Shown in pieces: positions 20,544 through 35,663 of a stretch of DNA of 39,635 nucleotides. The first letter of the stretch is position 1. Every line of letters starts with the position of its first letter. The stretch spans positions 1-39,635 of the forward strand of contig NZ_POTW01000061.1 in the NCBI RefSeq assembly GCF_003236295.1, read 5' to 3'. The notes beneath the pieces are model-generated. The model worked only from the letters and a program-made list of their open reading frames with translations, was not told the DNA's origin and made no database searches. Position numbers and translations under genes: made by a program. Source of the DNA: Jiangella anatolica (GTDB taxonomy: Bacteria; Actinomycetota; Actinomycetes; Jiangellales; Jiangellaceae).

Positions 20544-21035
20544 TCACTCGGCGAAGGCATCGCGCAGCTTCTCCTCCTGCTCCGTCGTCAGGTTCGACTG
20601 CACCAGCTCCGGCTTCAGGCCGGACTCCTCGAACGCCTGCAGCACCTTGTCTTGTACCGCGCCGCTGGTGAGGACGAACAGCGCGGACGTCCCCGGCGTG
20701 ACCTTCTCCCGGGTCTGGCGGATGAAGTCGTCGTCGATGCCGACGTCGGTGAGCGAGCCGCCGAGCGCGCCCGCGGCCGCCCCGACCGCCGCACCGAGCA
20801 GCGGGATGAAGAACAGCAGGCCGAACAGCAGCCCCCAGAACGCGCCGCCGAGCGCGCCGACCTTGGTGAGGCTCGACAGCTGCCGGGTCTTCGGCTTCTT
20901 CTTCTCCGGCTCCCACGACACCGTGGCGGCGTCGTGCACCTGGATCAGCTCCTGCTTCTGCAGCGACTCCAGCAGCGTGACGGCGCGGTCGGCGGCGGTG
21001 TGGTCGTCGAACTTCCAGACGGTGAACGTGGCCAT
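20544..21035 (-). CDS. DUF1269 membrane-associated protein, copy A
   Basis: 163 residues from ATG 21035, with a strong GAAGGAG ribosome-binding site. N-terminal ferredoxin-like part (FTVWKFDDHTAADRAVTLLE, QKQELIQVHDAATVSW), a Gly/Ala-rich hydrophobic hairpin in the middle (GALGGAFWGLLFGLLFFIPL, GAAVGAAAGALGG), and a C-terminal part with FIRQTREKVTPGTSALFVLT. This is the DUF1269 layout; function unknown. A paralogue lies at 32035. Regulon operator copy 2 lies about 110 bp upstream, inside the end of the SulP gene; the leader carries a small hairpin. Confidence 0.88.
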   Translation of the reverse strand: MATFTVWKFDDHTAADRAVTLLESLQKQELIQVHDAATVSWEPEKKKPKTRQLSSLTKVGALGGAFWGLLFGLLFFIPLLGAAVGAAAGALGGSLTDVGIDDDFIRQTREKVTPGTSALFVLTSGAVQDKVLQAFEESGLKPELVQSNLTTEQEEKLRDAFAE

Positions 21036-21068
21036 CGGGATCTCCTTCTCAGTCTCGGGCCAGGGCGG

Positions 21069-21088
21069 CCTGGAGCCGGCGCTCCAGG
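21069..21088 (-). promoter_or_regulatory. Leader hairpin between SulP and DUF1269 genes
   Basis: CCTGGAGC-CGGC-GCTCCAGG is a perfect 8-bp stem with a 4-nt loop, 34 bp upstream of the DUF1269 ATG. It lies within the expected leader RNA of the DUF1269 gene and after the SulP stop, so it may weakly terminate the SulP message or protect the downstream one. Confidence 0.4.
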
Positions 21089-21108
21089 TCCAGGTAGCGG
21101 CCGTCGAC

Positions 21109-22821
21109 TCATCGTCCGGCGGCGCCGTCGCCGGCGGCCTCACCTTCTCCGGGTGAGGTCGCCGCGACCGCCGCGTCGATCGACGGGTACAGCCGGTCCA
21201 CGACGGCCGCCGCGCCGGCCCGCCGCAGCACGTCGCGCACCTGCCCGACGTCGCCGACGACGAGCAGCCGGACGCCGTCGCCACGCAGCTCGGCGGCCGT
21301 GTCGCGGAGCATCCCGGCGGCGGTGACGTCGACGAACGGCACGGTGGCGGCGTCGAGGACGAGGGCGCGAACGCCGTCGGCGCCGGCCAGCTCCAGCAAC
21401 CGGTCCTGGACGGTGTCCGAGTTGGCGAAATAGAGGCCGCTCTCCACCCGGACCACCACGACGCCGTCAACCGGGGTACTCCCCGGTTCCCGCGCCCGAT
21501 CGACCCACTGGTCCTGCCCGGCCACCCTCCCCAGGACGGCGATGTGCGGGCGCGCCGAGCGGGCCAGCAGCAGCACCACCGACAGCACGACGCCGATGAG
21601 CAGGCCGGGCAGCGTGCCGAAGACCAGCACGCCGAGCAGGGCGCCGAGCGCGCAGATGAAGTCCGCCCGGGCCGCCCGGCCGTAGATCGAGGCCAGCGCG
21701 GCCGTGTTCACTTCGTACAGCCGCCGCAGCCCGCCGACGTCGACCAGCTCGATCACGGCCGCGATGACGACGGCCGCCAGCGCCGGCTCCGGCAGCTGCG
21801 CGAACAGCGGCGTCAGGATGAGCAGCGTCAGCACCGTCAGCGCGGCCACCGTCCAGCCGGACACCTGCGACCGGGCGCCGGCGCCGGCGTTGACCGCGGT
21901 CTTCGACAGGCTGCCGTTGACCACCATGCCCTGCAGGAACCCGGAGCCGAGGTTGGCCGCGCCCAGGCCGGCCAGCTCGCGGTTCGCGTCGATCCGGTAG
22001 CCGTCGCGGCGGGCGTAGTTCTTCGCCGCGCCGAGGCCCTCGGCGAAGCCGATCAGCATGACGCCGGCCGCGCCGGACAGCAGCAGCGGGATGTCCGACG
22101 CGGCGTTCAGGTCCGGCACCGCGGGCGCGGCCAGCCCGGCGTCGATGTGCCCGACGACGTCGACGCCGCGGTCCTCCAGGTCCAGCAGCGTCGCCAGCAC
22201 GATGCCCAGCACGACGGCGGCCAGCGACCCGGGCACCAGCGGCGCCACCCGGCGCAGCACCAGGACGAGGGCGAGGCAGCCCAGCCCGGTCAGCGCCGAC
22301 CAGCCGTTGGTGTCGCCCAGCGAGGTGACGACCGCCCACAGCTTCTGGAAGAAGTCGCCGTCGCCGCCCTCGATCCCGAACAGCTTCGGCAGCTGCCCGA
22401 CGATGATCACCAGCGCCATCCCGACGATGAAGCCCTTGAGCACGGGCTCGGAGACGAAGTTCGCGAGGAAGCCCAGCCGCAGCAGCCCGGCCAGCACCGC
22501 CAGCGCGCCGACGGCGAGCGCCAGCCCGGCGGTGTAGGCGGGGAACTCCCCGGATCCGTTGCTGACGATGCCGCCGACCACTCCTGCCGACAGCGCCGCC
22601 GTCGCCGACATCGGCCCGACCACGAGGTGCCGGGAGCTGCCCAGGACCGGGTACAGCAGCAGCGCCGGGATCGCCGCGTACAGCCCGATCACCGGCGGCA
22701 CGCCGGCGATGGACGCGTAGGCCAGCGACTCCGGGATCAGCACCGCCCACACCGTCAGCCCGGCCATCAGATCGCGGCGCAGCGACGCCCCTCGCAGCGA
22801 CCCGAACACCCATGCCGGCAT
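21109..22821 (-). CDS. SulP-family anion transporter with STAS domain, copy A
   Basis: 570 residues from ATG 22821 (MPAWVFGSLRGASLRRDLMA). The SulP signature is near the N-terminus (AVLIPESLAYASIAGVPPVI, GLYAAIPALLLYPVLG), with 10-14 membrane segments and a C-terminal STAS domain (VVVRVESGLYFANSDTVQDR, LVLDAATVPFVDVTAAGML). SulP proteins carry sulfate, bicarbonate or other anions; the substrate is not readable here. ATG 22821 is preferred over 22860 because CAGGCT lies exactly 6 nt upstream (leaderless) and the operator centre is 44 nt away. It is divergent from the GAP/SulP-B operon. Confidence 0.92.
   Translation of the reverse strand: MPAWVFGSLRGASLRRDLMAGLTVWAVLIPESLAYASIAGVPPVIGLYAAIPALLLYPVLGSSRHLVVGPMSATAALSAGVVGGIVSNGSGEFPAYTAGLALAVGALAVLAGLLRLGFLANFVSEPVLKGFIVGMALVIIVGQLPKLFGIEGGDGDFFQKLWAVVTSLGDTNGWSALTGLGCLALVLVLRRVAPLVPGSLAAVVLGIVLATLLDLEDRGVDVVGHIDAGLAAPAVPDLNAASDIPLLLSGAAGVMLIGFAEGLGAAKNYARRDGYRIDANRELAGLGAANLGSGFLQGMVVNGSLSKTAVNAGAGARSQVSGWTVAALTVLTLLILTPLFAQLPEPALAAVVIAAVIELVDVGGLRRLYEVNTAALASIYGRAARADFICALGALLGVLVFGTLPGLLIGVVLSVVLLLARSARPHIAVLGRVAGQDQWVDRAREPGSTPVDGVVVVRVESGLYFANSDTVQDRLLELAGADGVRALVLDAATVPFVDVTAAGMLRDTAAELRGDGVRLLVVGDVGQVRDVLRRAGAAAVVDRLYPSIDAAVAATSPGEGEAAGDGAAGR
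21139..21157. promoter_or_regulatory. Regulon operator copy 2 (upstream of DUF1269-A)
   Basis: CTCACCT-N5-GGGTGAG, one mismatch from the perfect dyad, inside the last codons of the SulP-A gene. On the minus strand GACGAT lies about 22 nt further on (21116-21111), a possible -10; start codon at 21035. Confidence 0.6.
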
Positions 22822-22855
22822 GTCCCCAGCCTGAGCCGGACCGCCCGCCGCGGTC

Positions 22856-22874
22856 CTCACCCCCTCCGGGTGAC
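22856..22874. promoter_or_regulatory. Regulon operator copy 3, shared by two divergent leaderless promoters
   Basis: CTCACCC-N5-GGGTGAC. The centre (22865) is exactly 44 nt from both start codons, 22821 on the minus and 22909 on the plus strand. On each side a -10-like hexamer follows after exactly 22 nt and ends 6 nt before the ATG: CAGGCT (22833-22828) and AAGGAT (22897-22902). This symmetric layout is the best evidence that the dyad is a regulator site. Confidence 0.85.
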
Positions 22875-22908
22875 GACGGCCCGGGCAGGTGGGCCCAAGG
22901 ATCGGGGC

Positions 22909-23586
22909 ATGGGTGAGGCGATCGGCGCGGTGCTGCCGCTCGGCGTGGGCGTCGCGCTGAGCCCGCTGCCGATCGTCGCAGTGGTGCTGATGCTCGGCAG
23001 CGCCCGCGGCCGGTCGAACGGGCCGGCGTTCCTGATCGGCTGGCTGCTCGGGCTGGCCGTGGCGGGGACGGCGTTCCTGCTGCTCGCGGCCGCCGCGGGG
23101 CCGTCCGACGACGGCGAGCCGGCGGCGTGGGTGTCGTGGCTGAAGCTGGTGCTCGGCCTGCTGGTGCTGCTGCTGGCCGTGCGCACCTGGCGGACCAGGC
23201 CGAAGGGCGACGACGACCCGCGGCTGCCCGGCTGGATGACGGCGCTCGACTCCTGGACGGCGGCCAAGACGCTGGGCCTGGGCGCCGCGCTCTCCGCCGT
23301 CAACCCGAAGAACCTCATGCTGACGATCGCCGCGGCCGCGGCCATCGCGCAGACCGGCGCCGGCGCCGGGGAGCAGGCCGTGGCGCTCGCGGTGTTCGTC
23401 GTCATCGGCGCGCTCGGACCGGGGATCCCGGTGGTCCTCGCGCTGGCGCTCGGCGACCGGGCCGACCGCATGCTCGCGGAGCTGAAGACCTGGCTGGCCA
23501 GCAACAACGCGGCGGTGATGACGGTCGTGCTGCTGGTGATCGGCGCGAAGCTGATCGGCGACGCGATCGCCGGACTGTCCGCGTGA
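22909..23586 (+). CDS. GAP-family (LysE-like) membrane protein
   Basis: 225 residues, six hydrophobic segments, starting MGEAIGAVLPLGVGVALSPL. The ALSPLPIVAVVLML start and the later AALSAVNPKNLMLTIAAAAA fit the GAP/Sap (sulfolipid-addressing-type) family within the LysE superfamily of exporters. The substrate is unknown. ATG 22909 is 6 nt after an AAGGAT -10 and 44 nt from the centre of operator copy 3. Its TGA overlaps the GTG of the SulP gene, so both are co-translated. Confidence 0.85.
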   Translation: MGEAIGAVLPLGVGVALSPLPIVAVVLMLGSARGRSNGPAFLIGWLLGLAVAGTAFLLLAAAAGPSDDGEPAAWVSWLKLVLGLLVLLLAVRTWRTRPKGDDDPRLPGWMTALDSWTAAKTLGLGAALSAVNPKNLMLTIAAAAAIAQTGAGAGEQAVALAVFVVIGALGPGIPVVLALALGDRADRMLAELKTWLASNNAAVMTVVLLVIGAKLIGDAIAGLSA

Positions 23587-25172
23587 GCGTGCGCGCCGAC
23601 GTCGTGGCGGGGATCGGCGCCGGCGCGGTCGTGCTCCCGCAGGCGATGGGGTACGCGGGCGTGGCCGGGCTGCCGGCGCAGGTCGGCCTCTACACGTGCA
23701 TCGTGCCGATGGCCGCGTACGCGCTGCTCGGCGGCGCCCGCCGGCTGAGCATGAGCACGACGTCGACGATCGTGGCGCTGGCCGGGCTGGCGCTCGCCGC
23801 TGCGGGCACGCCGGACGACCCGGACGCGGCGATGGCCGCAGTCAGCACGCTGACGCTGCTCACCGGGCTGGCGCTGCTGCTGTTCTGGCTGCTCCGGCTC
23901 GGCTGGACGGTCGACGCGATCTCCGACACCGTCGTCGCCGGGCTGAAGATCGGCGTCGGGCTGACGATCATCGTCGACCAGCTGCCGCATCTGCTCGGCA
24001 TCGACGCCGGGCCGGACGGGTTCCTGCGCGGCGTCGGGCACGCCGCCGGCCACCTCGGCGACGCGAACCGGGCCACCGTCGTCGTCGCGGCGGCGACGCT
24101 GGGCGGGCTGTGGGCGCTGCGCCGATGGGCGCCGCGGGTGCCCGGGCCGCTGCTCGCCGTCGCCGGCGGGATCGCGGCGACGGCGTGGGCGGACCTGCCC
24201 GGCCGCGGCGTCGAGCTGATCGAGCCGGTGCCCAGCGGGCTGCCGGTCCCCGCCCTGCCGCCGCTGGACGACGCCGGGACGCTGCTGCCGTACGCGCTGG
24301 CCATCGCGCTGATGGCGTTCATGGAGACGATCGCCGTCGGCCGCAGCACCCGCGAGCCGCTGGACCCGCCGATCGTCGCCGGACGCGAGCTGCTGGCCAA
24401 CGGGACGGCCGCGATCGCCGGCGCGTTCGTCGCGACGGCGCCGCCGGCCGGCGGGTTCTCGCAGACGATGGTCAACGTCGGCGCCGGCGCCCGCACCCAG
24501 CTCGCCTCGCTCGTCACTGCCGGCGTCGCGGTGGCGGCGGCACTGTTCCTCGCGCCCGTGCTCAGCGACCTGCCGGAGGCGACGCTGGCCGCCGTCGTCG
24601 TGGTCGCGGTGACCGGTCTGCTCGACCTCGACGAGCTGCGCCGGATCGGCCGCATCGACCGGACCGAGCTGCTGGTCGCGCTCGCCACCGGCGCGTTCGC
24701 GCTGGTGACGAACCTGCTGGCCGGCGTCGTCGCGGGCGTCGTCCTCACCTACTACCTGGTGCTGCGCCGGCTCAACCACCCGGTGCTGACGCAGGACAGC
24801 CCGGCGCCGGGGCTGCTGGTCGTGCGCATCGGCGGCGCGCTGTACACGATGAACGTGCGGACGGTGCAGGCCGAGCTGCTGCGCCGGGCGACGACGGCGG
24901 ACCCGCGGCCGCGGGTGCTGCTGCTGGACCTGGCGGCGACGCTGGACACGTCGGTCACCGTCATCGACGCGTTCGTCGCGACCGAGCAGCAACTGGCCCG
25001 GCACGACATCGACCTGTGGGTCGCGTTGGTCCCGGCGCCGGCGCTGGCGAAGGCGCAGCGGACGGCTGCCTGGCCGGCCTGGCGTGACGGCGGCCGGGTG
25101 CACCCGGACCTGCCGGCCGCCGTCACCGCCTACGAGGGCCTGGCCGCCGGCGGCCCGGACCGCGCCGCCTGA
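23583..25172 (+). CDS. SulP-family anion transporter with STAS-like domain, copy B
   Basis: 529 residues from GTG 23583 (GTGA overlap with the upstream gene), MSVRADVVAGIGAGAVVLPQ. The SulP signature is AMGYAGVAGLPAQVGLYTCI; the core is TSTIVALAGLALAA and GAFVATAPPAGGFSQTMVNV; the C-terminus is a STAS-like domain (VVRIGGALYTMNVRTVQAEL, VLLLDLAATLDTSVTVIDAF). It is only distantly similar to copy A, so the pair is not a recent duplication. Its end overlaps the convergent membrane-protein gene by 43 bp. Confidence 0.91.
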   Translation: MSVRADVVAGIGAGAVVLPQAMGYAGVAGLPAQVGLYTCIVPMAAYALLGGARRLSMSTTSTIVALAGLALAAAGTPDDPDAAMAAVSTLTLLTGLALLLFWLLRLGWTVDAISDTVVAGLKIGVGLTIIVDQLPHLLGIDAGPDGFLRGVGHAAGHLGDANRATVVVAAATLGGLWALRRWAPRVPGPLLAVAGGIAATAWADLPGRGVELIEPVPSGLPVPALPPLDDAGTLLPYALAIALMAFMETIAVGRSTREPLDPPIVAGRELLANGTAAIAGAFVATAPPAGGFSQTMVNVGAGARTQLASLVTAGVAVAAALFLAPVLSDLPEATLAAVVVVAVTGLLDLDELRRIGRIDRTELLVALATGAFALVTNLLAGVVAGVVLTYYLVLRRLNHPVLTQDSPAPGLLVVRIGGALYTMNVRTVQAELLRRATTADPRPRVLLLDLAATLDTSVTVIDAFVATEQQLARHDIDLWVALVPAPALAKAQRTAAWPAWRDGGRVHPDLPAAVTAYEGLAAGGPDRAA

Positions 25173-26476
25173 CCGGTCACCAGCTCCAGCGCCGCCAGCA
25201 GCACCCCCGCGACCAGCAGGATCCCCAGCACGACGGCCGCGTTCGGGTAGTTCCAGAAGACGAACACGACCACCGCGACGACCAGCACCGCCACTTGCGC
25301 CGGCCGCTTGTGCTCCCGCAACCGGGCGGCGGCGGCCGAGTCGCGCCAGCCCCACGCGGAGCCGACGGAGCCGAGCCGCCCCACACCCCGGCGCACCGCG
25401 ACCGCCTGCGGCGACGGCCCGGTCAGCCAGGCGACCAGCGCCACCACCAGTCCGACGGCCAGCACCATCCGCAGCGACGTCCGCAGCAGCGACACGATCT
25501 GGTCGAACACCGCTCCCGCCGCCGCGTCGTCGACGGACGGCGGCAGGGCGGTCAGGTAGACCGGCCGCGCGATGGTGAGCGCGGCGCCGAGCAGCAGCAT
25601 CGCGGCCGCGAGGCCGATGCCGGCGCCGATCAGCGCCCGCCGCCGGCCCCGGGCCACGATCACCCCGGCGGCGATCAGCGCCAGCGCGACGACCGGCAGC
25701 CAGGTGCCCAACCGGTCCAGCAGCCGCAGCGCGCCCTGCGCCTTCTCCACGTCGTCGGACTGGAACAGCGTCAGCTGGACGTCCGCCGACGGGATCGACG
25801 ATGCCCGGCTGAACCCGGCGTCGGCCAGCCGCTGCTTGACATCGTCGACGATCGGCGCGAGCTGGATGCTGACGGTGTTCCCCTCGACCTGGACCGCGCC
25901 GTTCTGGGTGTCGCCGGTGAGCGCCGTCAGCACCGCCTGGTGCGCGGCCCGGTTGGCCTGCGACCAGACGTCGGCGAACCGGTCGCTCGCGACGACGGTG
26001 CCGACCTGGTCGTGCACCCAGCCGTCCACGGCGCCGCCGATCGGGCCGGCCAGGTCCGCCAGCGTCGACGTCACCCGCGGGCCGGCGCCCTGGTTCGCCA
26101 GCGCGTCGGAGGCCTCCCGCACCACCGACGGCACGTCGAGCTCCTGCGCCACCCGGTCGCTCACCCGGTTGGTGACGGCGCGCTGGACGTCGGGATCGCG
26201 GGCCAGCGGGCCGACGGTCTCGACGTACCGGTCGGTGTCGGTGACGACCGAGTCCAGCCAGACCGCCGCCGTCGCCGGGATCGCCAGCAGGCAGCCGAGG
26301 CCGATCAGCAGCGGCGCCAGCACCGCACGCCAGCGCCCGCCACCCGGCCCGGCGTCACCCCGTGCGTCGGCCCGGGCCCCGCCCCGGGCCTCGTCACGCG
26401 CGTCGGCCGCGGCCCGCAGCCGGGCCACCTCGGCGCGCAGCCGGGCCAGCTCGGCGCCCGCGTCCTCGTCGGCCAT
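25130..26476 (-). CDS. Membrane protein with N-terminal coiled coil
   Basis: 448 residues. Residues 5-30 are a heptad-rich helix (AELARLRAEVARLRAAADAR), then an Arg/Gly-rich linker, a membrane segment (LLIGLGCLLAIPATAAVW), a large extracytoplasmic region (about 65-255; DRYVETVGPLARDPDVQRAV, VSIQLAPIVDDVKQRLADAG), then about five more membrane segments and a short tail. I have seen this layout in actinobacterial hypothetical proteins, but know no function. It starts 12 bp after the small gene at 26489 and is the last gene of the DUF6325-A operon under operator copy 4. Confidence 0.82.
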   Translation of the reverse strand: MADEDAGAELARLRAEVARLRAAADARDEARGGARADARGDAGPGGGRWRAVLAPLLIGLGCLLAIPATAAVWLDSVVTDTDRYVETVGPLARDPDVQRAVTNRVSDRVAQELDVPSVVREASDALANQGAGPRVTSTLADLAGPIGGAVDGWVHDQVGTVVASDRFADVWSQANRAAHQAVLTALTGDTQNGAVQVEGNTVSIQLAPIVDDVKQRLADAGFSRASSIPSADVQLTLFQSDDVEKAQGALRLLDRLGTWLPVVALALIAAGVIVARGRRRALIGAGIGLAAAMLLLGAALTIARPVYLTALPPSVDDAAAGAVFDQIVSLLRTSLRMVLAVGLVVALVAWLTGPSPQAVAVRRGVGRLGSVGSAWGWRDSAAAARLREHKRPAQVAVLVVAVVVFVFWNYPNAAVVLGILLVAGVLLAALELVTGQAARSGPPAARPS

Positions 26477-26488
26477 CGCAGGTTCCGA

Positions 26489-26686
26489 TCAGCCCGCGCC
26501 GGCCCGGGCGCCCGCCGGCGCCGGCCGCCGCTCGGCCGGCACGTCGTCCCGCGGCAGGGCCTGCGCGGGCAGCCGCCGCGCCGTCGAGTGCGTCACCGCG
26601 TTCCGGATCACCTGCGGCGTCCCGTCCAGGACCGCCGCCCGGGTCACCGTCGCCAGTAGCCCGGGCCGGTCGTAGCGTCCACTCAT
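26489..26686 (-). CDS. Short SHOCT-less relative of the 31203 protein
   Basis: 65 residues from ATG 26686, which overlaps the DUF6325-A stop (ATGA). MSGRYDRPGLLATVTRAAVL followed by DGTPQVIRNAVTHSTARRLP aligns by eye with the N-terminus of the SHOCT protein at 31203 (GLLRGMARTAVVAGTATAVS then NRVSRRQAERW). It lacks the SHOCT segment and ends in a Pro/Ala/Arg tail. Like that protein it directly follows a DUF6325 gene, so it is probably a diverged, shortened copy of the same pair. Confidence 0.65.
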   Translation of the reverse strand: MSGRYDRPGLLATVTRAAVLDGTPQVIRNAVTHSTARRLPAQALPRDDVPAERRPAPAGARAGAG

Positions 26687-27147
26687 GACTCCCCCTTCAA
26701 TACGTCGCCGGCCGCCTCCGACGGGATCAGGACGTGCAGCGCGACCTGTCCGCCGCCGTCCCGGATCGCCTCGGAGACCCGGCGCACCCAGGTGTTCTCG
26801 TACGCGATCAGCACCGCCGAGTGCCCCGGCGGCAGCGTGTCGGCCACGACGGCGATGTCCTCGTCGTTGACCAGCTCGCCCTCGGCGATCTCCACCCCGC
26901 CGAAGCCGAACCCGTCCGCCCCCTCGTCGAACTCGACGACCCGCAGGTCGCCGTTGGGCTCGCGAGTGGCGAACACGATGTCGAGCAGCGTGACGTCGCC
27001 CATGTCGACGACGCCGCGCAGCGCCTCCACGGCGAGCGGGTCGACCCGCTCGCCGGCGAAGGTCAGGATCAGCACCTCCACCGGCCGGAACCTCATCGCA
27101 GCCCCCGTCTGCGCCTGGCCATGCGCCACCCCATTCCCCCCGCCCAT
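26683..27147 (-). CDS. DUF6325-family protein, copy A
   Basis: Up to 154 residues. The conserved part begins MRFRPVEVLILTFAGERVDP and includes LRGVVDMGDVTLLDIVFATR and VLIAYENTWVRRVSEAIRDG, closely following copy B at 30754. The family is actinobacterial, with a ferredoxin-like pattern and no known activity. Two starts are possible: ATG 27147, 5 nt after CAGGGT and 42 nt from the centre of operator copy 4 (leaderless), or ATG 27096, where family similarity begins. I give 27147 because the promoter geometry equals that of the other regulon genes; confidence in the exact start is only moderate. Confidence 0.82.
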   Translation of the reverse strand: MGGGNGVAHGQAQTGAAMRFRPVEVLILTFAGERVDPLAVEALRGVVDMGDVTLLDIVFATREPNGDLRVVEFDEGADGFGFGGVEIAEGELVNDEDIAVVADTLPPGHSAVLIAYENTWVRRVSEAIRDGGGQVALHVLIPSEAAGDVLKGES

Positions 27148-27179
27148 CGCTCACCCTGCCCAGTGGTGATCGAACTCGC

Positions 27180-27198
27180 CTCACCCGCACCGGGTGAG
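27180..27198. promoter_or_regulatory. Regulon operator copy 4 (upstream of DUF6325-A operon)
   Basis: CTCACCC-N5-GGGTGAG, extended to perfect 9-bp arms (27178-27200, GCCTCACCC and GGGTGAGGC). On the minus strand CAGGGT (27158-27153) follows after 21 nt and ATG 27147 lies 5 nt beyond. It lies just 3' of the LuxR gene, so it serves only the DUF6325-A operon. Confidence 0.8.
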
Positions 27199-27206
27199 GC
27201 GCACTC

Positions 27207-29882
27207 CTACAGCAGCCCCAGCTCCCGCGCGCGGTCCACCGCCTGCCGCCGGCTGCCGACGTCGAACTTGCGGTAGATCGCCTTCAGATGCGTCTTGACG
27301 GTGTTGACGCTCAGCACGTGCGCGCCGGCGATCTCTTCCAGCGACAGCAGCGACGGCAGGTCGCGCAGCAACTCCAGCTCGCGCGCGGTGAGCGCCTCGC
27401 CGGACACCGTCGCCGTGCCCCCCTCCCCCGCGTCGTCGCCGAACAGGCCGACGACGGTGCGGACGAACGGCTCGTACCGCCCGAACCTCCCCTCCCCGTG
27501 GATGAGCAGCGACCGGACCCGCCCGGACGCCGCGACGAACTCCCGGTACAGCCGCCGCGGCTCGGCGAGGTCCAGCGCGTGCAGCAGCGCGTCGTGCGCC
27601 CGCGCGGGCTCGTCCAGCTCGGCGGCGAAGTGCGCGGCCAGCAGCCAGCCGGTGATCTCCGCGCCGACCAGCTGGCAGGCCGTCGTCCCGGCCAGCACCG
27701 GGTGCAGCGCCGCCCGCGCCGCCGCCTTGCGCCCGTCGTGCGCGTGCGCCAGCGCCCGCAGCACCAGCACGTCGCCGGTCTCGCCGAGCAGCCGCTCGGC
27801 CCGGGCCAGCGCCTCTCCCGCGGCCGGCCGGTCGCCGGCGGCCAGCGCCAGCCGCAGCTCCGTCAGGCAGAAGTAGACGACGCTGGTCGGCGGCAGCGCG
27901 GCGTCGTCGTAGGGCCAGGCCCGGCGCAGCAGCCGGACCGCCTCGTGCCGGTTCGGCGTCTCCGCGGCGGCCAGGCAGGCCCGCAGCAGCCGGGCCGACA
28001 GCTCCACCTCCGGCTCCATGTCGGCGTCGACGGCGGCGAGCAGCGCCAGGTATCGCGCGGCGTCGGCGTCCTCGAGCCGCTCGAACGCGGCGCCGGCCGC
28101 CACCAGGTACACCGGCGGCATCCGCCCGGTCGACGACCAGCCGCGGCACGCGGCGAACTCGATCGCCTCGCTGGTCCGCCGGTTGACGGCGTCGGCGTCG
28201 CCCCGCGCGGCGGCGCTGACCGCGAGGTAGGACAGGCACTCCAGCGCCAGCGCGTCGCGGCCGTCGCGGCGGGCCATCCGCAGGGCGGCGTTGAGGTCCT
28301 CCTCGGCGGCCAGGAACTCACCGAACCAGATCCGGAGGATTCCCCGGTTCACCGCGGCCAGCAGCAGCAGGTCCGGCTCGCCGGGCACCTGCTCGTCGCT
28401 GAGCGCGATGAGGTTCACCAGCTCCGGGCCGCGGTCGCCGCGCAGCCGCGCCTCGTACATCAGCGCGGTGGTGTGCAGCAGCCGCAGCCGCCCGGACCGA
28501 TGCCGCGACGGGTCCCGCCCGACCAGGTCGATGTGCCGGCGGGCCACCGCCAGCGCGCCCTCGTGCAGCGCCGCCAGCGCCGCGACCAGCGCCGTCACCG
28601 GCTCGGTGACGAGGTCGTCGGGCAGCTGCCGCATCGTCGCCGTCAGCCGGCCCGCGTCGCCGGACAGCAGCAGCCGCAGCCCGTACCGGTCCACCAGCTC
28701 GGCGGTGCGCGGCCAGTCGCCGCCGCCGGCCGCGTGGTCCAGCGCCGGACCGGGCAGCCCGTGGTCGGCGAACCAGCGCGACGCCTCGACGTGGGCGCGG
28801 CGCTGCCCGACGACGTCGCGCCGGGTCCCCTCGGCCAGCAGGAAGCTGCGCAGCAGGCCGTGCACCCGGTACGCCGTCGGCGCCCGCCCGACCCGCGACA
28901 CCAGCGCGTTGTCGCGGGCCAGCCGGGCCAGGACGGCGCCGGCGTCGGCCCGGCCGGACAGGCGGCTGGCGAGGTCCGTGGTGAGCGTCTCGGCCACCGC
29001 GGTGGCCAGCAGCAGCTCGACGGTGTCGGCGGAGAGCGCGTCGAGCACCTCCGCGACCAGGTAGTCGGCCAGCGGCCGCTCGTCGCCGGCGAACCCGGCG
29101 ATGTACTTGGTCACGTCGTCCTGCGACGCCAGTGACAGCGCGGCCAGGCTGAGCCCGGCCGCCCAGCCCTCGGTCCGTTCCAGCAGCAGGTCCAGGTCCG
29201 GCTCGGTCAGCTCCAGGCGCCGGTGGCGCAGCAGCTGGCCGGCCTCGTCGCGGTCGAACGCGAGGTCGGCCGCGCGGACCTCGGCGGCCTGCCCGTCCAG
29301 CACCATCCGGGCCACCGGCAGCGGTGGGTCGAACCGGCTGCCGAGCACGAGCCGCAGGCCGGCCGGACGGTACCGGATCAGCCCGGCGAGGCAGGCCAGC
29401 CCGCGCGGCGACGCGATCACGTGCACGTCGTCGATCAGCATCCACAGCGGTCCGCCGAGCGCGTCGACGGCCTCGGCGAACGCGGTCAGGAAGCCGCGGT
29501 TGCCCGCGTCGCCCGGCGGCGTCAGCGCGGCCAGCCGCACCTCCGCGGCGGCGTCGACCCCGCGCACCGCGCGGCCGCAGGCGCGCAGCAGCCCGGACCA
29601 GAGCACGTGCGGGTCGTCGTCGTGCTCGTCCAGCGCCAGCCAGGCCACCGGGACGCCGGCCGAGCGCTGCCGCTGCCACCACTGCGTCAGCAGCATGGTC
29701 TTGCCCGCTCCGGCCGGGGCCGAGACCAGCGCCAGCACGCGCCCGTCCGCCTCCGCGTCCGCCAGGCCGCGGAGCAGCCGGGTGCGTGGCACCGCGCTGG
29801 CCGGCATCCTGGGAACCCGCAGCTTCTGCTCGAGGATCCGGGCCCGTCCAGCGAACTGGGCGGCTTCGACCACGATCTTCAC
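27207..29882 (-). CDS. Large LuxR-family regulator of LAL/MalT type, probable regulon activator
   Basis: 891 residues from GTG 29882 (VKIVVEAAQFAGRARILEQK). The usual MalT-like beginning is KLRVPRMPASAVPRTRLLRG; Walker A is SAPAGAGKTMLL (about 54-64); Walker B is LWMLIDDVHV; then come winged-helix and TPR-like helical repeats and a C-terminal LuxR helix-turn-helix (LTARELELLRDLPSLLSLEE, SVNTVKTHLKAIYRKF). Such STAND ATPases work as ligand- or protein-controlled activators. The open frame goes on to 30278, but the upstream part lacks family similarity; GTG 29873 is another possible start. Operator copy 4 lies just past its end and copy 5 in its own promoter, so it is the natural candidate to bind them and activate itself. 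Confidence 0.9.
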   Translation of the reverse strand: MKIVVEAAQFAGRARILEQKLRVPRMPASAVPRTRLLRGLADAEADGRVLALVSAPAGAGKTMLLTQWWQRQRSAGVPVAWLALDEHDDDPHVLWSGLLRACGRAVRGVDAAAEVRLAALTPPGDAGNRGFLTAFAEAVDALGGPLWMLIDDVHVIASPRGLACLAGLIRYRPAGLRLVLGSRFDPPLPVARMVLDGQAAEVRAADLAFDRDEAGQLLRHRRLELTEPDLDLLLERTEGWAAGLSLAALSLASQDDVTKYIAGFAGDERPLADYLVAEVLDALSADTVELLLATAVAETLTTDLASRLSGRADAGAVLARLARDNALVSRVGRAPTAYRVHGLLRSFLLAEGTRRDVVGQRRAHVEASRWFADHGLPGPALDHAAGGGDWPRTAELVDRYGLRLLLSGDAGRLTATMRQLPDDLVTEPVTALVAALAALHEGALAVARRHIDLVGRDPSRHRSGRLRLLHTTALMYEARLRGDRGPELVNLIALSDEQVPGEPDLLLLAAVNRGILRIWFGEFLAAEEDLNAALRMARRDGRDALALECLSYLAVSAAARGDADAVNRRTSEAIEFAACRGWSSTGRMPPVYLVAAGAAFERLEDADAARYLALLAAVDADMEPEVELSARLLRACLAAAETPNRHEAVRLLRRAWPYDDAALPPTSVVYFCLTELRLALAAGDRPAAGEALARAERLLGETGDVLVLRALAHAHDGRKAAARAALHPVLAGTTACQLVGAEITGWLLAAHFAAELDEPARAHDALLHALDLAEPRRLYREFVAASGRVRSLLIHGEGRFGRYEPFVRTVVGLFGDDAGEGGTATVSGEALTARELELLRDLPSLLSLEEIAGAHVLSVNTVKTHLKAIYRKFDVGSRRQAVDRARELGLL

Positions 29883-29940
29883 AGTAGCGGCGAATACCCC
29901 GAACGGGACCGGATCACGCACCTCGTTCTCGGGTGGCCCC

Positions 29941-29959
29941 CTCACCCCGTGCGGGTGAG
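29941..29959. promoter_or_regulatory. Regulon operator copy 5 (between LuxR and the 30024 gene)
   Basis: CTCACCC-N5-GGGTGAG, perfect. On the plus side CATCGT (29981-29986) follows after 21 nt; on the minus side CGTGAT (29918-29913) follows after 22 nt. Start codons are further away here (30024 plus, 29882 minus), so both transcripts would have short leaders. Confidence 0.75.
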
Positions 29960-30023
29960 CCGGTCCGGTGGCCGGGCCGCCATCGTGGAGGAGTCCCGCC
30001 GCACTGCATGGGGGCGCATCGAC

Positions 30024-30224
30024 ATGCGTTACGAGTTCCTCGTCACCGGCCGCGTCTCCGACACGGTCCGGGCGGCGTTTCCCGAGTTCGACGTCGCCGA
30101 CGGCCCGGCCGGCGGCACGTCGATCTATGGGCCGGTGCGCGACCGGGCGGCGCTGCGGGGCATGCTCGCGCGGCTGGACGCCCTCGGGCTGACGATCGTG
30201 GAGATGCGCCGGCTGCCCGACTGA
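30024..30224 (+). CDS. Small 66-residue protein, unknown function
   Basis: MRYEFLVTGRVSDTVRAAFP at the N-terminus, then EFDVADGPAGGTSIYGPVRD and LARLDALGLTIVEMRRLPD. The short strand-helix-strand pattern, ending in a strand that follows a helix, suggests a small ferredoxin-like domain. I recognise no named family. The ribosome-binding site is weak; the in-frame GTG at 29985 would overlap the presumed -10. It is followed 20 bp later by the DUF6069 gene and lies downstream of operator copy 5. Confidence 0.7.
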   Translation: MRYEFLVTGRVSDTVRAAFPEFDVADGPAGGTSIYGPVRDRAALRGMLARLDALGLTIVEMRRLPD

Positions 30225-30244
30225 TCCCCGAGGAGGCTGTGCCG

Positions 30245-30697
30245 ATGACCAGCGAACCCTACGCCCGGTCCGGGCCACCCGAGGTCGACGCCCGCCGGTT
30301 GTGGTCCGGCGGCGTCGCGACCGCCCTGGTCGGCGCGCTCATCGCCGTCGTCGGGATCGTGCTGGTCCGTGGCGTGCTGGACATCCCGGTCCTGGCGCCG
30401 GAGGGCGAGGGTGTCTGGGGCGACGCGAGCACCGGCTGGTACGCGGCCGGCGCGGCCCTGGCGGCGCTGGTGTCCACCGGCCTGGCGCACGTGCTGCTGC
30501 TGACGACGCCGCAGCCGCTGCGGTTCTTCGGCTGGGTCGTGGGGCTGGCGACGGTGATCGGCGTCGTCGCGCCGTTCACGTCGGACGCGGACCTCGACGC
30601 CGAGGTCGCGACCGCCGGGCTGAACCTGGTGCTCGGGGTGGCGATCGGCACGCTGGTCGCGTCGGTGGCGCGGGCCGCCGTCCGCCGCCGGCGCTGA
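30245..30697 (+). CDS. DUF6069-family membrane protein
   Basis: 150 residues from ATG 30245, preceded by GAGGAGG. Four membrane segments: VATALVGALIAVVGIVLVRG, GWYAAGAALAALVSTGLAHV, PLRFFGWVVGLATVIGVVAP and ATAGLNLVLGVAIGTLVASV. The combination VDARRLWSGG, VLDIPVLAPEGEG and TTPQPLRFFGW fits the DUF6069 family of actinobacteria, function unknown. It shares the operator-5 transcript with the small gene before it and ends 5 bp before operator copy 6. Confidence 0.85.
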   Translation: MTSEPYARSGPPEVDARRLWSGGVATALVGALIAVVGIVLVRGVLDIPVLAPEGEGVWGDASTGWYAAGAALAALVSTGLAHVLLLTTPQPLRFFGWVVGLATVIGVVAPFTSDADLDAEVATAGLNLVLGVAIGTLVASVARAAVRRRR

Positions 30698-30701
30698 CGC
30701 C

Positions 30702-30720
30702 CTCACCCGCGACGGGTGAG
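30702..30720. promoter_or_regulatory. Regulon operator copy 6 (upstream of DUF6325-B operon)
   Basis: CTCACCC-N5-GGGTGAG, perfect. GAGGCT (30742-30747) follows after 21 nt and ends 6 nt before ATG 30754; the operator centre is 43 nt from the ATG. This is the same leaderless architecture as copy 3. Confidence 0.82.
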
Positions 30721-30753
30721 GCGTCGCGTGCCGAGGGGGCGGAGGCTGGCCGC

Positions 30754-31197
30754 ATGGACACCGTGGACGTGGGACCGGTCGACATCCTGATGCTGAGGTT
30801 CCCGGGGAACCAGTTCCGGGGCGAGATCGTGCCGGCGCTGCGCGACCTCGTCGTGACCGGGCTGATCCGGGTCGTCGACCTGATGTTCGTGTACCGCGAC
30901 GAGGACGGGACGGTCGGCTCGGTCGAGCTGGCCGGGCTCGGCCCGGAGCTGAAGCCCGCCTTCGCCGACCTGGACGGCCAGCTCGGCGGCGGGATGCTCG
31001 ATGCCGAGGACGTCGAGGAGGTCGCGGCCGGGCTGCCGCCAGGCTCCTCCGTCGCCGTCCTCGTCGTGGAGAACACCTGGGCGATCCCGTTCGTCAACGC
31101 CGTCCGGCGGGCCGGCGGCGAGGTCGCCGACCAGGCCCGCATCCCGGCGGAGACGGCCGAGCGCGCGCTGCGCGACCTGGGCCTCGGGCTGGGGTGA
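30754..31197 (+). CDS. DUF6325-family protein, copy B
   Basis: 147 residues, leaderless start at ATG 30754. MDTVDVGPVDILMLRFPGNQ, then ALRDLVVTGLIRVVDLMFVY, VAAGLPPGSSVAVLVVENTW and AVRRAGGEVADQARIPAETA match copy A at the same positions (VEVLILTF, LLDIVF, LPPGHSAVLIAYENTW). It is the first gene of a four-gene operon: DUF6325, SHOCT protein, lipoprotein, DUF1269. Function unknown; the conserved ENTW stretch may be an interaction surface. Confidence 0.86.
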   Translation: MDTVDVGPVDILMLRFPGNQFRGEIVPALRDLVVTGLIRVVDLMFVYRDEDGTVGSVELAGLGPELKPAFADLDGQLGGGMLDAEDVEEVAAGLPPGSSVAVLVVENTWAIPFVNAVRRAGGEVADQARIPAETAERALRDLGLGLG

Positions 31198-31202
31198 GGA
31201 CG

Positions 31203-31505
31203 ATGGGACTGCTGCGCGGCATGGCCCGGACGGCGGTCGTGGCCGGCACGGCGACGGCGGTGTCGAACCGGGTGTCGCGGCGCCAGGCCGAGCGCTGGCA
31301 GCGTCAGGCCTACGAGGAACAGGCGATGGCCGCGCCACCCGCGGCCGCGGCAGCGCCACCCGCGGCCGCGCCTGCACCGCCCGCCGCCGCCCCGCAGGCC
31401 GGCGACTCGCTGGCCGACCAGCTGGACCGCCTGGCCGATCTGAAGGCGCAGGGTGTGCTCACCGACGAGGAGTTCGCTGCCGCCAAGGCCCGGCTGCTGG
31501 GGTGA
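31203..31505 (+). CDS. SHOCT-domain protein
   Basis: 100 residues from ATG 31203 with GTGAGGA as ribosome-binding site; a GTG at 31194 overlapping the DUF6325-B stop is an equally possible start. The N-terminal helix is MGLLRGMARTAVVAGTATAV; the middle is an Ala/Pro repeat (three copies of an APPAAA-type unit); the C-terminal SHOCT segment is LADQLDRLADLKAQGVLTDE followed by EFAAAKARLLG. SHOCT is an oligomerisation helix pair often attached to membrane or secreted parts. A relative without SHOCT is at 26489. Confidence 0.86.
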   Translation: MGLLRGMARTAVVAGTATAVSNRVSRRQAERWQRQAYEEQAMAAPPAAAAAPPAAAPAPPAAAPQAGDSLADQLDRLADLKAQGVLTDEEFAAAKARLLG

Positions 31506-31510
31506 GCCGG

Positions 31511-32038
31511 ATGCGGGCGACCCTCGGGCTCGCGGCGTCGGTCGTGCTGCTGGCCGGCTGCGCCGACGACGCGTCGCCGGCGACCGACTGGGCCGACGGC
31601 GTCTGCTCGGCCTGGGACCAGCTGTCTTCCGACCTGCGCGCGCTGACCTCCGGCCTCGACGGCGATCTGTCCGGCCGGCTGGACGCCGTGCAGGCCAGCG
31701 CGCAGGACCTCGTCGACGCGATCGCCGACACGCCCGACGGCGCCGACGAGGCCGTCGAGGACGCCCAGCAGGAGTTGAGCGGAGAGGCCGGGGACGTCCG
31801 GTCCGGGCTGGACTCCGTCGCACAGGCGCTGCAGGGCCTCACCGACGCGAGCAGCCAGGACGACGTCGCCGCCGCGCTCTCCGAGGCGCAGGACGGGCTG
31901 AGCGCGACCGGCCAGGCGCTCACCGCTCTCGGCGACACCGTCGGCGGCTACGCGTCGGCCGCCGACGACACGCTCCAGCAGGCCTTCGACGAGGCGCGGT
32001 CCTGCCGCGAGACGCGCACGGGAGGGACGTCGTCATGA
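31511..32038 (+). CDS. Lipoprotein with helical, coiled-coil-like body
   Basis: 175 residues from ATG 31511; signal peptide MRATLGLAASVVLLAGC with lipobox LAGC and acylated Cys17. The mature part is acidic and helical (DQLSSDLRALTSGLDGDLSG, LDAVQASAQDLVDAIADTPD, GLDSVAQALQGLTDASSQDD), with heptad-like Leu/Ala spacing, and ends in CRETRTGG. Another Cys near the mature N-terminus (GVCSAWDQL) may form a disulfide with that C-terminal Cys. No family recognised. Its TGA overlaps the next ATG. Confidence 0.8.
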   Translation: MRATLGLAASVVLLAGCADDASPATDWADGVCSAWDQLSSDLRALTSGLDGDLSGRLDAVQASAQDLVDAIADTPDGADEAVEDAQQELSGEAGDVRSGLDSVAQALQGLTDASSQDDVAAALSEAQDGLSATGQALTALGDTVGGYASAADDTLQQAFDEARSCRETRTGGTSS

Positions 32039-32541
32039 GCGACAGCACAATCGAGGTCTTCGTGGCCGCGTTCGGCGCCGAGGACGAGGCCGGGCAGGTC
32101 CTGACGGAGCTGCGCGCGATGGACCGCGAGGGGGTCATCGAGCTCATCGACGCCGCGGTCGTGGTCCGGCGGGCCGACGGCAAGGTCACGCTCCAGGAGA
32201 CCGGCGACCCGAGCGGGCGGACGTGGGCCAAGCGCGGCGCCGTCGCCGGCGGCCTGGTCGGGCTGATCTTCCCGCCTAGCCTGCTGGTGTCCGCGGCGGT
32301 CGGGGCTGCCGGCGGCGGACTCTGGGGCAAGCTGCGCGACAAGGGCTTCCAGGATGCCGACCTGCGCGCCGTCGGCGACGGCCTCGAGCCCGGCACGTCC
32401 GCCGTCATCGCCGTCGCCGAGGACCGGATGCTGGACCGGCTGCAGGAGGCCATCGAGGGCTACCGCAGCATCGCCCGGCACGCCGTCAGCGCCGAAGCCG
32501 CGGCCGCCGTCGCCGCCGCGGAGCCGCCACCCCCGTCCTAG
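32035..32541 (+). CDS. DUF1269 protein, copy B
   Basis: 168 residues from ATG 32035 (ATGA overlap). IEVFVAAFGAEDEAGQVLTE and DREGVIELIDAAVVVRRADG correspond to the N-terminal domain of copy A; the Gly/Ala hydrophobic hairpin is GAVAGGLVGLIFPPSLLVSA; the C-terminal part DADLRAVGDGLEPGTSAVIA also lines up. An Ala/Pro tail ends the protein. It is the last gene of the operator-6 operon. Its TAG and the TAG of the convergent gene share the same CTAG. Confidence 0.87.
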   Translation: MSDSTIEVFVAAFGAEDEAGQVLTELRAMDREGVIELIDAAVVVRRADGKVTLQETGDPSGRTWAKRGAVAGGLVGLIFPPSLLVSAAVGAAGGGLWGKLRDKGFQDADLRAVGDGLEPGTSAVIAVAEDRMLDRLQEAIEGYRSIARHAVSAEAAAAVAAAEPPPPS

Positions 32542-33305
32542 GTCAGCTGGCCGGAGAAGTAGGCCAGCGCCGTGCGGGTCTTGGTCTGCTGCACGCCGCC
32601 GAGGGCGATGCCGCGCGCGCCGAGGAACGCCCGCGACTCGGCGGCGACGTTGAGCGCCTCGCCGGGCGGGCACTTGGTGGACAGCTCCAGGATCCGGCCG
32701 CCGTCGGGGTAGAACCACAGCTCCGCGACCAGCCGGCGGCCGTAGTCGCCGGGCGTGAACTTGAGCTTCATGATGGTGATCGGGCCGAGCGGGCGCAGCT
32801 CATCCAGCTCGACGCCCTCCGGCCCGTGTGCGGCGAACAGGTCGCGCTGCTGTTTGGTGAACAGCTTGCGGATCGGCCGCTGCCCGCTCAGCACGTCGGC
32901 CACGTGCGCGTTGTCGACCGGCGCCTTCATCGTGCCGGACGCGACGAACGAGCCGCCCGGCATCGCGTCGACCTCGACCCCGAAGTCCGGCGACCGGCGC
33001 AGCGACGCCGGCAGCTTCTCCGGTCGCACCGGCCGCAGCTTCACCACCGCGTCGCCCGGCCGGCGCTGTACCCGCCGGGCCCGCACCACCACGCCGTGGC
33101 GGTCCAGCGTCAGATCCGGGGTGTCGAAGAACACCACCTGCCGGATCTGCGCGTCCAGCGGATCCATCCCCAGCGCCGAGACCGCCGACCGCTGGTCGCC
33201 GTCGGGCACGCTCAGCTTCAGCTCGACCGTGTCGGCTCCCTTGAGCAGCGCGAGCAGCTCACCCAGCCGGTCGCTGGACATGATCGGCAACGCCACCTCG
33301 CTCAT
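32538..33305 (-). CDS. CYTH-like domain protein
   Basis: 255 residues from ATG 33305 (MSEVALPIMSSDRLGELLAL). VELKLSVPDGDQR, then QVVFFDTPDLTLDRHGVVVR followed by ARRVQRRPGDAVVKLRPV, resembles the substrate tunnel of CYTH (triphosphate tunnel) proteins; later come ITIMKLKFTPGDYGRRLVAE and a C-terminal ELSTKCPPGEAL. The N-terminal ExExK metal motif is reduced to E-L-K, so normal triphosphatase or cyclase chemistry is uncertain. It lies under regulon operator copy 7, divergent from the SnoaL-like gene. Confidence 0.7.
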   Translation of the reverse strand: MSEVALPIMSSDRLGELLALLKGADTVELKLSVPDGDQRSAVSALGMDPLDAQIRQVVFFDTPDLTLDRHGVVVRARRVQRRPGDAVVKLRPVRPEKLPASLRRSPDFGVEVDAMPGGSFVASGTMKAPVDNAHVADVLSGQRPIRKLFTKQQRDLFAAHGPEGVELDELRPLGPITIMKLKFTPGDYGRRLVAELWFYPDGGRILELSTKCPPGEALNVAAESRAFLGARGIALGGVQQTKTRTALAYFSGQLT

Positions 33306-33351
33306 CCGGACCACCCCCGTCTGGATCGTCGCGGTAAGAGACCCTTCCGGC

Positions 33352-33370
33352 CCCACCCGATCCGGGTGAT
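33352..33370. promoter_or_regulatory. Regulon operator copy 7 (between CYTH-like and SnoaL-like genes)
   Basis: CCCACCC-N5-GGGTGAT. Plus side: GAGGTT (33392-33397) after 21 nt, with ATG 33411 13 nt further on; a second hexamer CAGGCT lies 6 nt before that ATG. Minus side: GACGAT (33330-33325) after 21 nt, before ATG 33305. It is the weakest dyad of the set, but the spacing is the same. Confidence 0.7.
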
Positions 33371-33410
33371 GCCTTGACCTGAACCGCGCTTGAGGTTGCA
33401 GGCTGGTGGC

Positions 33411-33860
33411 ATGACCACAGACATCGACGCGGGCGGCGCGGCGGCCGAACTGGACGCGATCCGCCGCGTCATCGACACCGTCGAGCACGCGCAGAACCAC
33501 GAGTTGCCCGACGAGTTCCTGGCGCTGTTCCGGCCGGACGCGATCTGGACCACCGGCGGCGGCAAGCGGCTCTACGGGCTGGACGAGATCGCCCGGTTCA
33601 CCCGCGAGGTGCTGCCCGGCGGCATGCGCGGCCTGTCGGTGCGGTTCGAGCTGGAGCACGTGATGTTCATCCGCCCCGATGTCGCCGCCGTGAAGCTGCG
33701 ACAGGTGTACAGCACACCGGACGGCCTCGACGTCGGCTCGCCGCTGTGGATCCTGGCCAAGGAGGACGGCCGCTGGCTGCTCACCGCCTGCCAGAACATC
33801 GGCGTCCCCGACGACGAGGACGTGGCGCCGAGCCGGCCGGTCTTCGGCAGCGCCGCCTAG
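33411..33860 (+). CDS. SnoaL/NTF2-like protein (SgcJ/EcaC type)
   Basis: 149 residues, MTTDIDAGGAAAELDAIRRV at the N-terminus. The cone-shaped NTF2-like fold is indicated by the long first helix, LPDEFLALFRPDAIWTTGGG, KRLYGLDEIARFTREVLPGG and the C-terminal strand GSPLWILAKEDGRWLLTACQ. Relatives often degrade or sequester small molecules, but catalytic residues cannot be assigned. Its TAG shares CTAG with the convergent adenosine deaminase stop. Confidence 0.82.
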   Translation: MTTDIDAGGAAAELDAIRRVIDTVEHAQNHELPDEFLALFRPDAIWTTGGGKRLYGLDEIARFTREVLPGGMRGLSVRFELEHVMFIRPDVAAVKLRQVYSTPDGLDVGSPLWILAKEDGRWLLTACQNIGVPDDEDVAPSRPVFGSAA

Positions 33861-34880: not shown

Positions 34881-35663
34881 GTGCGGATCGCGGTGACGGG
34901 GGCGAGCGGGCGGGTCGGCGGCCGGGTGGCCGAGCTGCTGGCGCCGGAGCACGACGTGGTCGCACTGGTGCGGCCGGCGTCGCCGTACACGCCGCCGCCG
35001 GGGGTCACCGTCGCGCCCGCCGACTATGCCGACCCCGCGTCGCTGCGGGCGGCGTTGGACGGCGTCGACACGCTGGTGTTCGTGTCCAGCGACGGCCACG
35101 CGGCCACCGTCATGCTGCACCACGCGAACGTCGTGGCGGCCGCCGCCGACGCGCGCGTCGGGCACGTCGTCGCGCTGAGCGGCCTGGACGCCGACGTCGA
35201 GTCGCCGTTCTGCTACGCCGTCACCAACGGGCACACCGAGCGGCTGCTGGAGGCCAGCGGCTGCGGCTACTCACTGGCCCGCGCGTCGGTCTACACCGAG
35301 TTCTTCCGGTCCCTCGTGCGGGGCGCCCGGCGCGGCGACGAGGTCCGGCTGCCCGCCGGCGACGCCCGGGTGTCGCTGGTCGCCCGGGCCGACGTCGCAC
35401 GGTCGCTGGCCGCGCTGGCGCTGCGCCCGCCGTCGGGCACGCACCACGACCTCACCGGGCCGGCCGCGCCCGCCGTCGCCGAGGTGGTCGCCGCGGAGGG
35501 CGCCCGCCACGTGGAGGTCACCCTGGCCGAGTACGTCGCCGCGCTGCTCGACGGCGGCGAGACGTCGTGGTGGGCGCACGCCTACGGGACGATGCTGGAG
35601 TCGATCCGCCTGGGCCGCTGGGCCACCGTGAGCGACGAGGTGGCGACGCTCACCGGCGGCTGA
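34881..35663 (+). CDS. NmrA-type NAD(P)-binding protein (short-chain dehydrogenase-like)
   Basis: 260 residues from GTG 34881 (VRIAVTGASGRVGGRVAELL), 6 nt after a TACGCT -10. The Rossmann motif is TGASGRVG; VFVSSDGHAATVMLHHANVV and GHVVALSGLDADVESPFCYA follow; the C-terminus ends WWAHAYGTMLESIRLGRWAT, typical for NmrA/YtfG-like quinone reductases or redox sensors. The usual SDR YxxxK is not preserved. The end overlaps the convergent reductase gene by 14 bp. Confidence 0.87.
   Translation: MRIAVTGASGRVGGRVAELLAPEHDVVALVRPASPYTPPPGVTVAPADYADPASLRAALDGVDTLVFVSSDGHAATVMLHHANVVAAAADARVGHVVALSGLDADVESPFCYAVTNGHTERLLEASGCGYSLARASVYTEFFRSLVRGARRGDEVRLPAGDARVSLVARADVARSLAALALRPPSGTHHDLTGPAAPAVAEVVAAEGARHVEVTLAEYVAALLDGGETSWWAHAYGTMLESIRLGRWATVSDEVATLTGG

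Follow-up and report, generated by a model that had tools for sequence, protein, structure and literature searches.

To our knowledge, LAL proteins are common in actinobacteria and their known sites are few, mostly those of pathway-specific regulators, and the STAND LuxR proteins that we know of act as activators. In Escherichia coli, the STAND LuxR activator MalT controls the maltose regulon, and MalT boxes are asymmetric GGGGAKGA-like elements arranged in repeats. In promoters of LuxR-type activators acting from the class II position, the site is centred at -42.5. Among related regulators, BldM is a LuxR-type protein, mainly an activator, with the half-sites TCACCCG/CGGGTGA, and its Group I sites, 5'-TCACcCgnncGgGTGA-3', have been footprinted in S. 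venezuelae, according to the available part of that study (PMC4125116). In antibiotic clusters, the site of MilO consists of three direct repeats, TGTC(N)3CGGT, 142 bp upstream of the start, and heptameric direct repeats have been proposed as the binding site of PimR (both from the available part of PMC11784345).

The window analysed here, a stretch of 39,635 nucleotides from Jiangella anatolica (contig NZ_POTW01000061.1), carries on its minus strand (27207-29882) an intact open reading frame with a GTG start, which encodes an 891-aa protein and is the predicted reader of the dyads described below. A GerE/LuxR helix-turn-helix (PF00196, 2.1e-9) is matched at the C-terminus (residues 830-885), and matches to TPR_MalT (2e-10) and, weakly, to AAA_16 are under the Pfam cut-off. 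At the N-terminus the Walker A motif APAGAGKT is conserved in an alignment of 11 sequences, which also contains a Walker-B-like LIDDVH and in which G58, G60, K61, T62, D151 and D152 are invariant. The AlphaFold model (mean pLDDT 84; 11 sequences) has helices at 342-814 that match MalT domain III (1hz4), and the top PDB match by both sequence and fold is MalT 8bob (profile search E 1.8e-69; Foldseek fold E 1.6e-15), with 1hz4 also among the Foldseek hits. Assignment as a MalT orthologue was rejected on the NCBIfam equivalog cut-off, which was missed (222.9 versus 537 bits). Because of the Pfam and MalT fold matches together with an NCBIfam score far under the cut-off, the protein is of LAL/STAND architecture and is not a MalT orthologue. 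Pfam matched no receiver domain in it, its N-terminus being of the NTPase type, and the closest named relatives found belong to Jiangella species and Haloactinopolyspora alba. The initial annotation had described it as the only regulator in the block, which agrees with the called genes of 19502-33860 (calls from a purpose-written script, only part of the genes being scanned), among which no other was recognised.

The 17-bp dyad core TCACCC-N5-GGGTGA has 10 exact copies in the genome, five of them in the window, and none in the reversed control. The longer form CTCACCC-N5-GGGTGAG, with at most one mismatch, occurs in eight places in the 7.0 Mb genome, again with five in the window and none in the reversed control. 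Both positions reported in the initial annotation, 29941-29959 and 27180-27198 near the end of the regulator gene, are perfect copies of this longer form, as is the one at 30702; weaker copies lie at 19911, 21139, 22856 and 33352. Taken alone, the count in the window at up to three mismatches (7 matches versus 4.4 expected) is little proof of a signal, because 14 of 100 shuffles also reach 7, and it is the genome-wide picture that is beyond chance. The short core TCACCC..GGGTGA occurs in this genome 10 times with N5, twice with N9, once each with N3, N6 and N7 and never with N4 (reversed control, all spacings together: 2), and within the window the N4 and N6 spacings give one three-mismatch match each. 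Across dyad loci, spacings from 0 to 12 gave 98 occurrences of N5, six of N0, one each of N4 and N9 and none of the others. Membership in a BldM Group I regulon was considered and rejected, as the spacer in the window is N5, the genome has ten N5 and no N4 cores, and the regulator in the block has no receiver match. In the literature searched, which had most subscription papers outside its reach, no description of the N5 dyad as a LAL site was found, nor anything on DUF6325, LuxR with SHOCT, LuxR with HdeD or BldM with spacing; among the matches listed for TCACCCG with CGGGTGA, none seemed related by title.

The dyads are a feature of promoters. The survey took in the window and, apart from L004, loci L001-L113, and found 98 exact N5 dyads, a number that includes repeated orthologous loci as well as L001-L003 and the window, which were chosen because of their dyads. 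A start codon lies within 250 bp of 96 of these 98, compared with 16% of random positions, and four lie inside genes, compared with 68% of random positions. In a promoter set built from dyads with at most one mismatch, outside genes and oriented to genes (231 promoters, 194 after removal of near-copies), 124 of the 194 have a degenerate -10 (ANNNT) at a distance of 32 or 33 bp from the dyad centre (72 at +32 and 52 at +33), compared with a mean of 3.5 at other offsets (sd 2.0, maximum 11). With offset 31 also allowed, the phased -10 is present in 15/21, 16/21, 55/70 and 35/76 promoters at gene distances of 36-48, 48-70, 70-100 and 100-250 bp; the signal holds at every distance and is therefore not that of the start codon. 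These promoters have no recognisable -35, and leaderless starts fall at +43 to +45 from the dyad centre. The centre would thus lie some 43-44 bp before the transcription start as predicted from the sequence, and a dyad that covers the -35 region with its centre near -42, together with a phased -10, would correspond to the class II activator position, a statement about geometry and not about activity. The same phasing is found in this genome outside the window, where all five exact sites have a phased -10 on the gene side and none on the opposite side, and within it, where each of the seven dyads has at least one (9 of 14 sides in all).

The predicted regulon in this genome comprises 14 promoters from 12 dyads, nine in the window and five elsewhere. 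The perfect dyad at 27180-27198, with a phased -10 at 27153-27157 on the minus strand, faces a gene for a DUF6325 protein (26683-27096, minus strand) and not the regulator. Another perfect dyad (30702-30720) has its phased -10 at 30743-30747 on the plus strand, and the first gene behind it, also for a DUF6325 protein (30754-31197, plus strand), starts 43 bp from the dyad centre and is likely leaderless; it probably forms an operon with the plus-strand genes for a SHOCT protein (31194-31505), a lipoprotein-like product (31511-32038, by eye) and a DUF1269 protein (32035-32541). Two dyads have phased -10s on both sides. The first, with an exact core (22856-22874; -10s at 22898-22902 on the plus and 22828-22832 on the minus strand), would serve an SfLAP (Sap) membrane protein (22909-23586, plus) and a SulP permease with a STAS domain (21109-22821, minus), and the second, with one core mismatch (33352-33370; -10s at 33393-33397 on the plus and 33325-33329 on the minus strand), a DUF4440/SnoaL-like protein (33411-33860, plus) and a 255-aa protein without a Pfam match (32538-33305, minus). 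Further predicted targets are a DUF1269 protein (20544-21035, minus), whose start at 21035 is faced by a one-mismatch dyad (21139-21157, -10 at 21111-21115, minus), and a DUF7144 membrane protein (19999-20424, plus) behind a dyad with an exact core and differing outer bases (19911-19929, -10 at 19953-19957, plus). Outside the window, predicted targets include PLDc_N-SHOCT, DUF1254/DUF1214 and arylsulfatase proteins. Across loci, 76 of 88 target representatives were scanned (ten LALs and two short ones were left out), giving PLDc_N in 11, SHOCT in 10, DUF308 in eight, DUF7144 and DUF6325 in seven each, SfLAP in five, ion channels in four, sulfatases in three and SulP in two. Many predicted targets are small membrane proteins, which, along with a weak match of one DUF308 member to the acid-resistance protein HdeD (49.5 versus 189 bits, far under the cut-off), suggests a role of the predicted regulon in envelope or ion stress.

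Further gene clusters were noted in passing. A 20-kb LAL cluster (L174, G028:C283) comprises, mostly by eye, two SulP-like and two SfLAP-like genes, sulfatase-like genes and one formylglycine-generating-enzyme-like gene; N5 dyads, counted at up to one mismatch, number five there. The window itself encodes at 25130-26476 a 448-aa membrane-type protein without a Pfam match, and proteins resembling it by eye directly follow a dyad in clusters L168, L172 and L036. At 35650-39087 lie genes for a pyridine-nucleotide disulphide reductase, a membrane channel-like protein, an ArsR-LMWPc fusion and a phosphatase/arsenate-reductase-like protein, a group that, judged by eye and partly from Pfam matches, resembles an arsenic-handling cluster.

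The dyad at 29941-29959 had been placed in the regulator's own promoter by the initial annotation, a placement that did not stand, as this dyad lies between divergent genes and its phased -10 (29982-29986, plus strand, from offsets) faces only a gene for a 66-aa protein at 30024-30224 (plus strand), downstream of which lies a DUF6069 gene (30245-30697, plus). The same orientation, with the -10 toward the 66-aa gene, is found in the window and in all 12 of 12 further loci (eleven orthologues and the 39% paralogue L027). In a fourteenth locus, L018, a one-mismatch dyad beside the regulator has a phased -10 on neither side, and in L014 and L017 (2 of the 15 family orthologues) the intergenic stretch beside the regulator start has no dyad. 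Self-regulation through the adjoining dyad was rejected because in 13 of the 14 loci the -10 points away from the regulator, to the 66-aa gene beside it, and in none of the 14 toward the regulator; judged by the geometry of dyad and -10, the regulator's own gene does not seem to be a target.

The 66-aa protein most likely represents the nearest predicted target of the LAL regulator. It matched no Pfam or NCBIfam family, and its model, a confident one (pLDDT 93), is a beta-alpha-beta-beta-alpha-beta arrangement whose PDB fold matches are weak (best E 0.014) and mostly to acylphosphatase, PII and other ferredoxin-like folds; a function based on fold was dropped on that E value. Of 135 LAL frames, 56 have a match to a profile built from 11 members no further than 300 bp away, and matches also occur in 7 of 19 low-GC loci. 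Eight of the 93 profile hits are further than 3 kb from a LAL, and these too come from LAL-centred loci. Such genes carry an upstream N5 dyad (at most one mismatch) in 29 of 50 cases in K loci and an upstream TCACCA-N4 dyad in 7 of 13 cases in R loci (classes defined below), with no crossing. The neighbouring DUF6325, DUF1269 and SHOCT proteins, for which a part in signal sensing had been suggested, behave as targets, and the 66-aa protein is the better candidate for a partner.

That the regulator would be the reader of these dyads had been tied by the initial annotation to their co-occurrence across actinobacterial genomes. In the window's family (22 genomes), all 15 carriers of an orthologue have 4-19 sites (8, 16, 16, 13, 10, 15, 12, 19, 7, 17, 10, 14, 8, 4 and 11), and all seven non-carriers have 0-2 (2, 0, 0, 2, 2, 2 and 0), where an orthologue is a protein of at least 46% identity, a cut chosen after the gap was seen, and two of the seven genomes are incomplete (75% and 81%). 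Among 148 genomes of the class, the exact N5 core is present in 58 and the BldM-type N4 core in 102, and at least three dyads are found in 24 of 67 LAL-positive and 2 of 81 LAL-negative genomes (16/57 and 2/80 after removal of the window's family). The mean number of N5 sites is 2.57 in LAL-positive and 0.40 in LAL-negative genomes (1.47 versus 0.40 without the family, Mann-Whitney p 1.4e-4). Because the LAL-negative mean exceeds the reversed control (12 sites across the 148 genomes), a few N5 sites may be read or kept by something without a LAL. The screen scored only six candidates per genome, which makes an absence unsure, as in the false negative G148, where the dyads appeared to lack a LAL and one was found on another contig (L171). 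In G106, which has five exact N5 dyads and in-phase -10s at the two sites checked (L156 and L159), no LAL was found among 71 scored candidates. Two of the sites in this genome (G106:C1:2953776 and 2956885; positions 9777 and 12886 of L170), some 3.1 kb from each other, are almost identical N5 dyads with phased -10s and lie near a transposase-like frame seen by eye. The co-occurrence thus stands in the family (15/15 against 0/7) and as an enrichment in the class, and dyads without a LAL found, the case that had been named as refuting, occur at least once.

The recognition helix gives a second line of evidence. High-GC LAL loci, most of them fetched by protein similarity alone, were grouped into K (NTVK-[TSA]-H-[LV]) and R (NTxRTHT), after four of 139 LALs without a helix-turn-helix alignment had been left out and four duplicate loci dropped. 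Of the 60 K-helix loci, 40 contain TCACCC-N5 (35 of 53 once the window, L171-L174, L177 and L216, whose genome dyad counts were known beforehand, are set aside), as does 1 of the 13 R-helix loci; TCACCA-N4-TGGTGA is present in 10 of 13 R-helix and none of 60 K-helix loci. The R-type dyad came from a count of inverted repeats without preset words and was found and counted on the same loci, so that the Fisher p of 4.6e-10 is optimistic, and it is also overstated since the tree, a quick FastTree of the protein without its helix-turn-helix and with several long branches, shows K changing to R only once. Independent pairs on this tree number one, and because of that single change the relation of helix to dyad type amounts, as far as the tree tells, to a single evolutionary contrast that many genomes share. 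At R-type dyads a -10 stands at +32 on 10 of 20 sides, compared with a mean of 0.53 over all offsets, which supports TCACCA-N4 independently of the motif count. Both kinds occur together in G091 (L181 with N5, L187 with N4), G117 (L179, L193) and G009 (L005, L029), the first locus of each pair being K and the second R. No exact dyad was found in 20 of the 60 K loci, nor in any of seven low-GC K-helix LALs. Outside the K/R comparison stood 15 K-other, six R-THVI, six N and 11 other loci, with TCACCC-N5 in three, two, one and one of these and TCACCA-N4 in one K-other and one other locus; the six N-helix loci showed no dyad of their own. As a stand-alone regulon marker TCACCA-N4 proved unusable, being present in 52 of 148 genomes and mostly once. 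The LALs of L171 and L173, with the helices SENTVKTHV/TENTVKTHV, have dyads in which one half reads GGGGGA, and these may be a third variant of the site.

Taken together, co-occurrence in family and class and the co-variation of helix and dyad support the LAL protein as dyad reader, and we consider it probable that this regulator activates the dyad regulon from a class II position, its own gene excepted. The protein would be idle until ATP and a signal cause oligomerisation, an expectation from family knowledge; inducibility by a small molecule likewise follows from the family only. The LuxR helix-turn-helix domains of the oligomer would then bind the 17-bp dyad, which would replace the -35 element, and RNA polymerase would use the weak -10 (ANNNTG) at the phased distance. 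The 66-aa ferredoxin-like-fold protein is proposed to be made in a feedback loop and to act as co-regulator or signal-binding partner.

Three other readings bear on this proposal. Paralogous LALs might share the dyad, making the gene at 27207-29882 one reader among several, which is unlikely and still to be reckoned with: another LAL locus of the same genome (L213, G000:C133) has an adjoining N5 dyad and DUF7144-like gene, and a 39% paralogue in G006 is ringed by dyads of its own, but G010, with LAL matches and without this orthologue, has only two sites at up to one mismatch and no exact core, and five of the ten exact sites of the J. anatolica genome lie in this window. The name of master regulator may therefore be too strong, although the role of reader is supported. 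It is improbable that the reader is another LuxR-type protein, BldM or a relative, with the LAL gene as a mere neighbour; the half-sites of the S. venezuelae Group I site are identical in the available part of the source (PMC4125116), and G106 has N5 dyads with no LAL found, but BldM has a spacer of N4, the exact N4 and N5 cores vary separately in the 148 genomes, the J. anatolica genome has ten of N5 and none of N4, N5 tracks the presence of a LAL, and a different LAL helix class tracks a different dyad. On sequence alone, cross-binding by BldM is conceivable. Repressor operators are very improbable: many repressors have dyads between divergent genes, but the fixed distance from centre to -10, the absence of a recognisable -35 and the leaderless starts at +43 to +45 would place the dyad ahead of the -10 and not over it, and STAND LuxR proteins are, as far as we know, activators. 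On the fixed phasing this repressor reading was dropped.

Beyond activation by the LAL regulator, a wider scheme can be put forward tentatively, as one that we hold to be possible and rather doubtful. A small set of half-sites would be common to actinobacterial LuxR-type activators, and the spacer length and the final base would serve as an address code: BldM would be addressed through TCACCC-N4, STAND proteins with a K helix through TCACCC-N5 and those with an R helix through TCACCA-N4. Such a STAND protein and its tiny ferredoxin-like-fold partner would form a two-gene unit, the partner gene often being the nearest target; the partner, present also outside Actinobacteria, would be a receptor for an intracellular signal or a brake acting by feedback.

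For a whole LAL subfamily these results offer a predicted operator, promoter geometry, regulon and candidate partner, and they assign a predicted regulator to many genes of unknown function (DUF6325, DUF7144, DUF1269, PLDc_N-SHOCT and DUF308). They also allow a clear test of whether regulons of two LuxR-type proteins that share their half-sites are kept apart by one base pair of spacing. The regulator resembles MalT in its order of NTPase, helical repeats and LuxR helix-turn-helix, but it is predicted to bind, in the class II position, a palindrome of 17 bp, and its predicted targets are not maltose genes. MilO and PimR are likewise LuxR-type actinobacterial activators, PimR also with LAL architecture, whereas here a single palindrome lies at about -43 and the regulon is unlike an antibiotic cluster. 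BldM, as described in the available part of its source, is an orphan response regulator with a 16-bp palindrome spaced by N4, in contrast to the N5 spacer and STAND protein of this locus.
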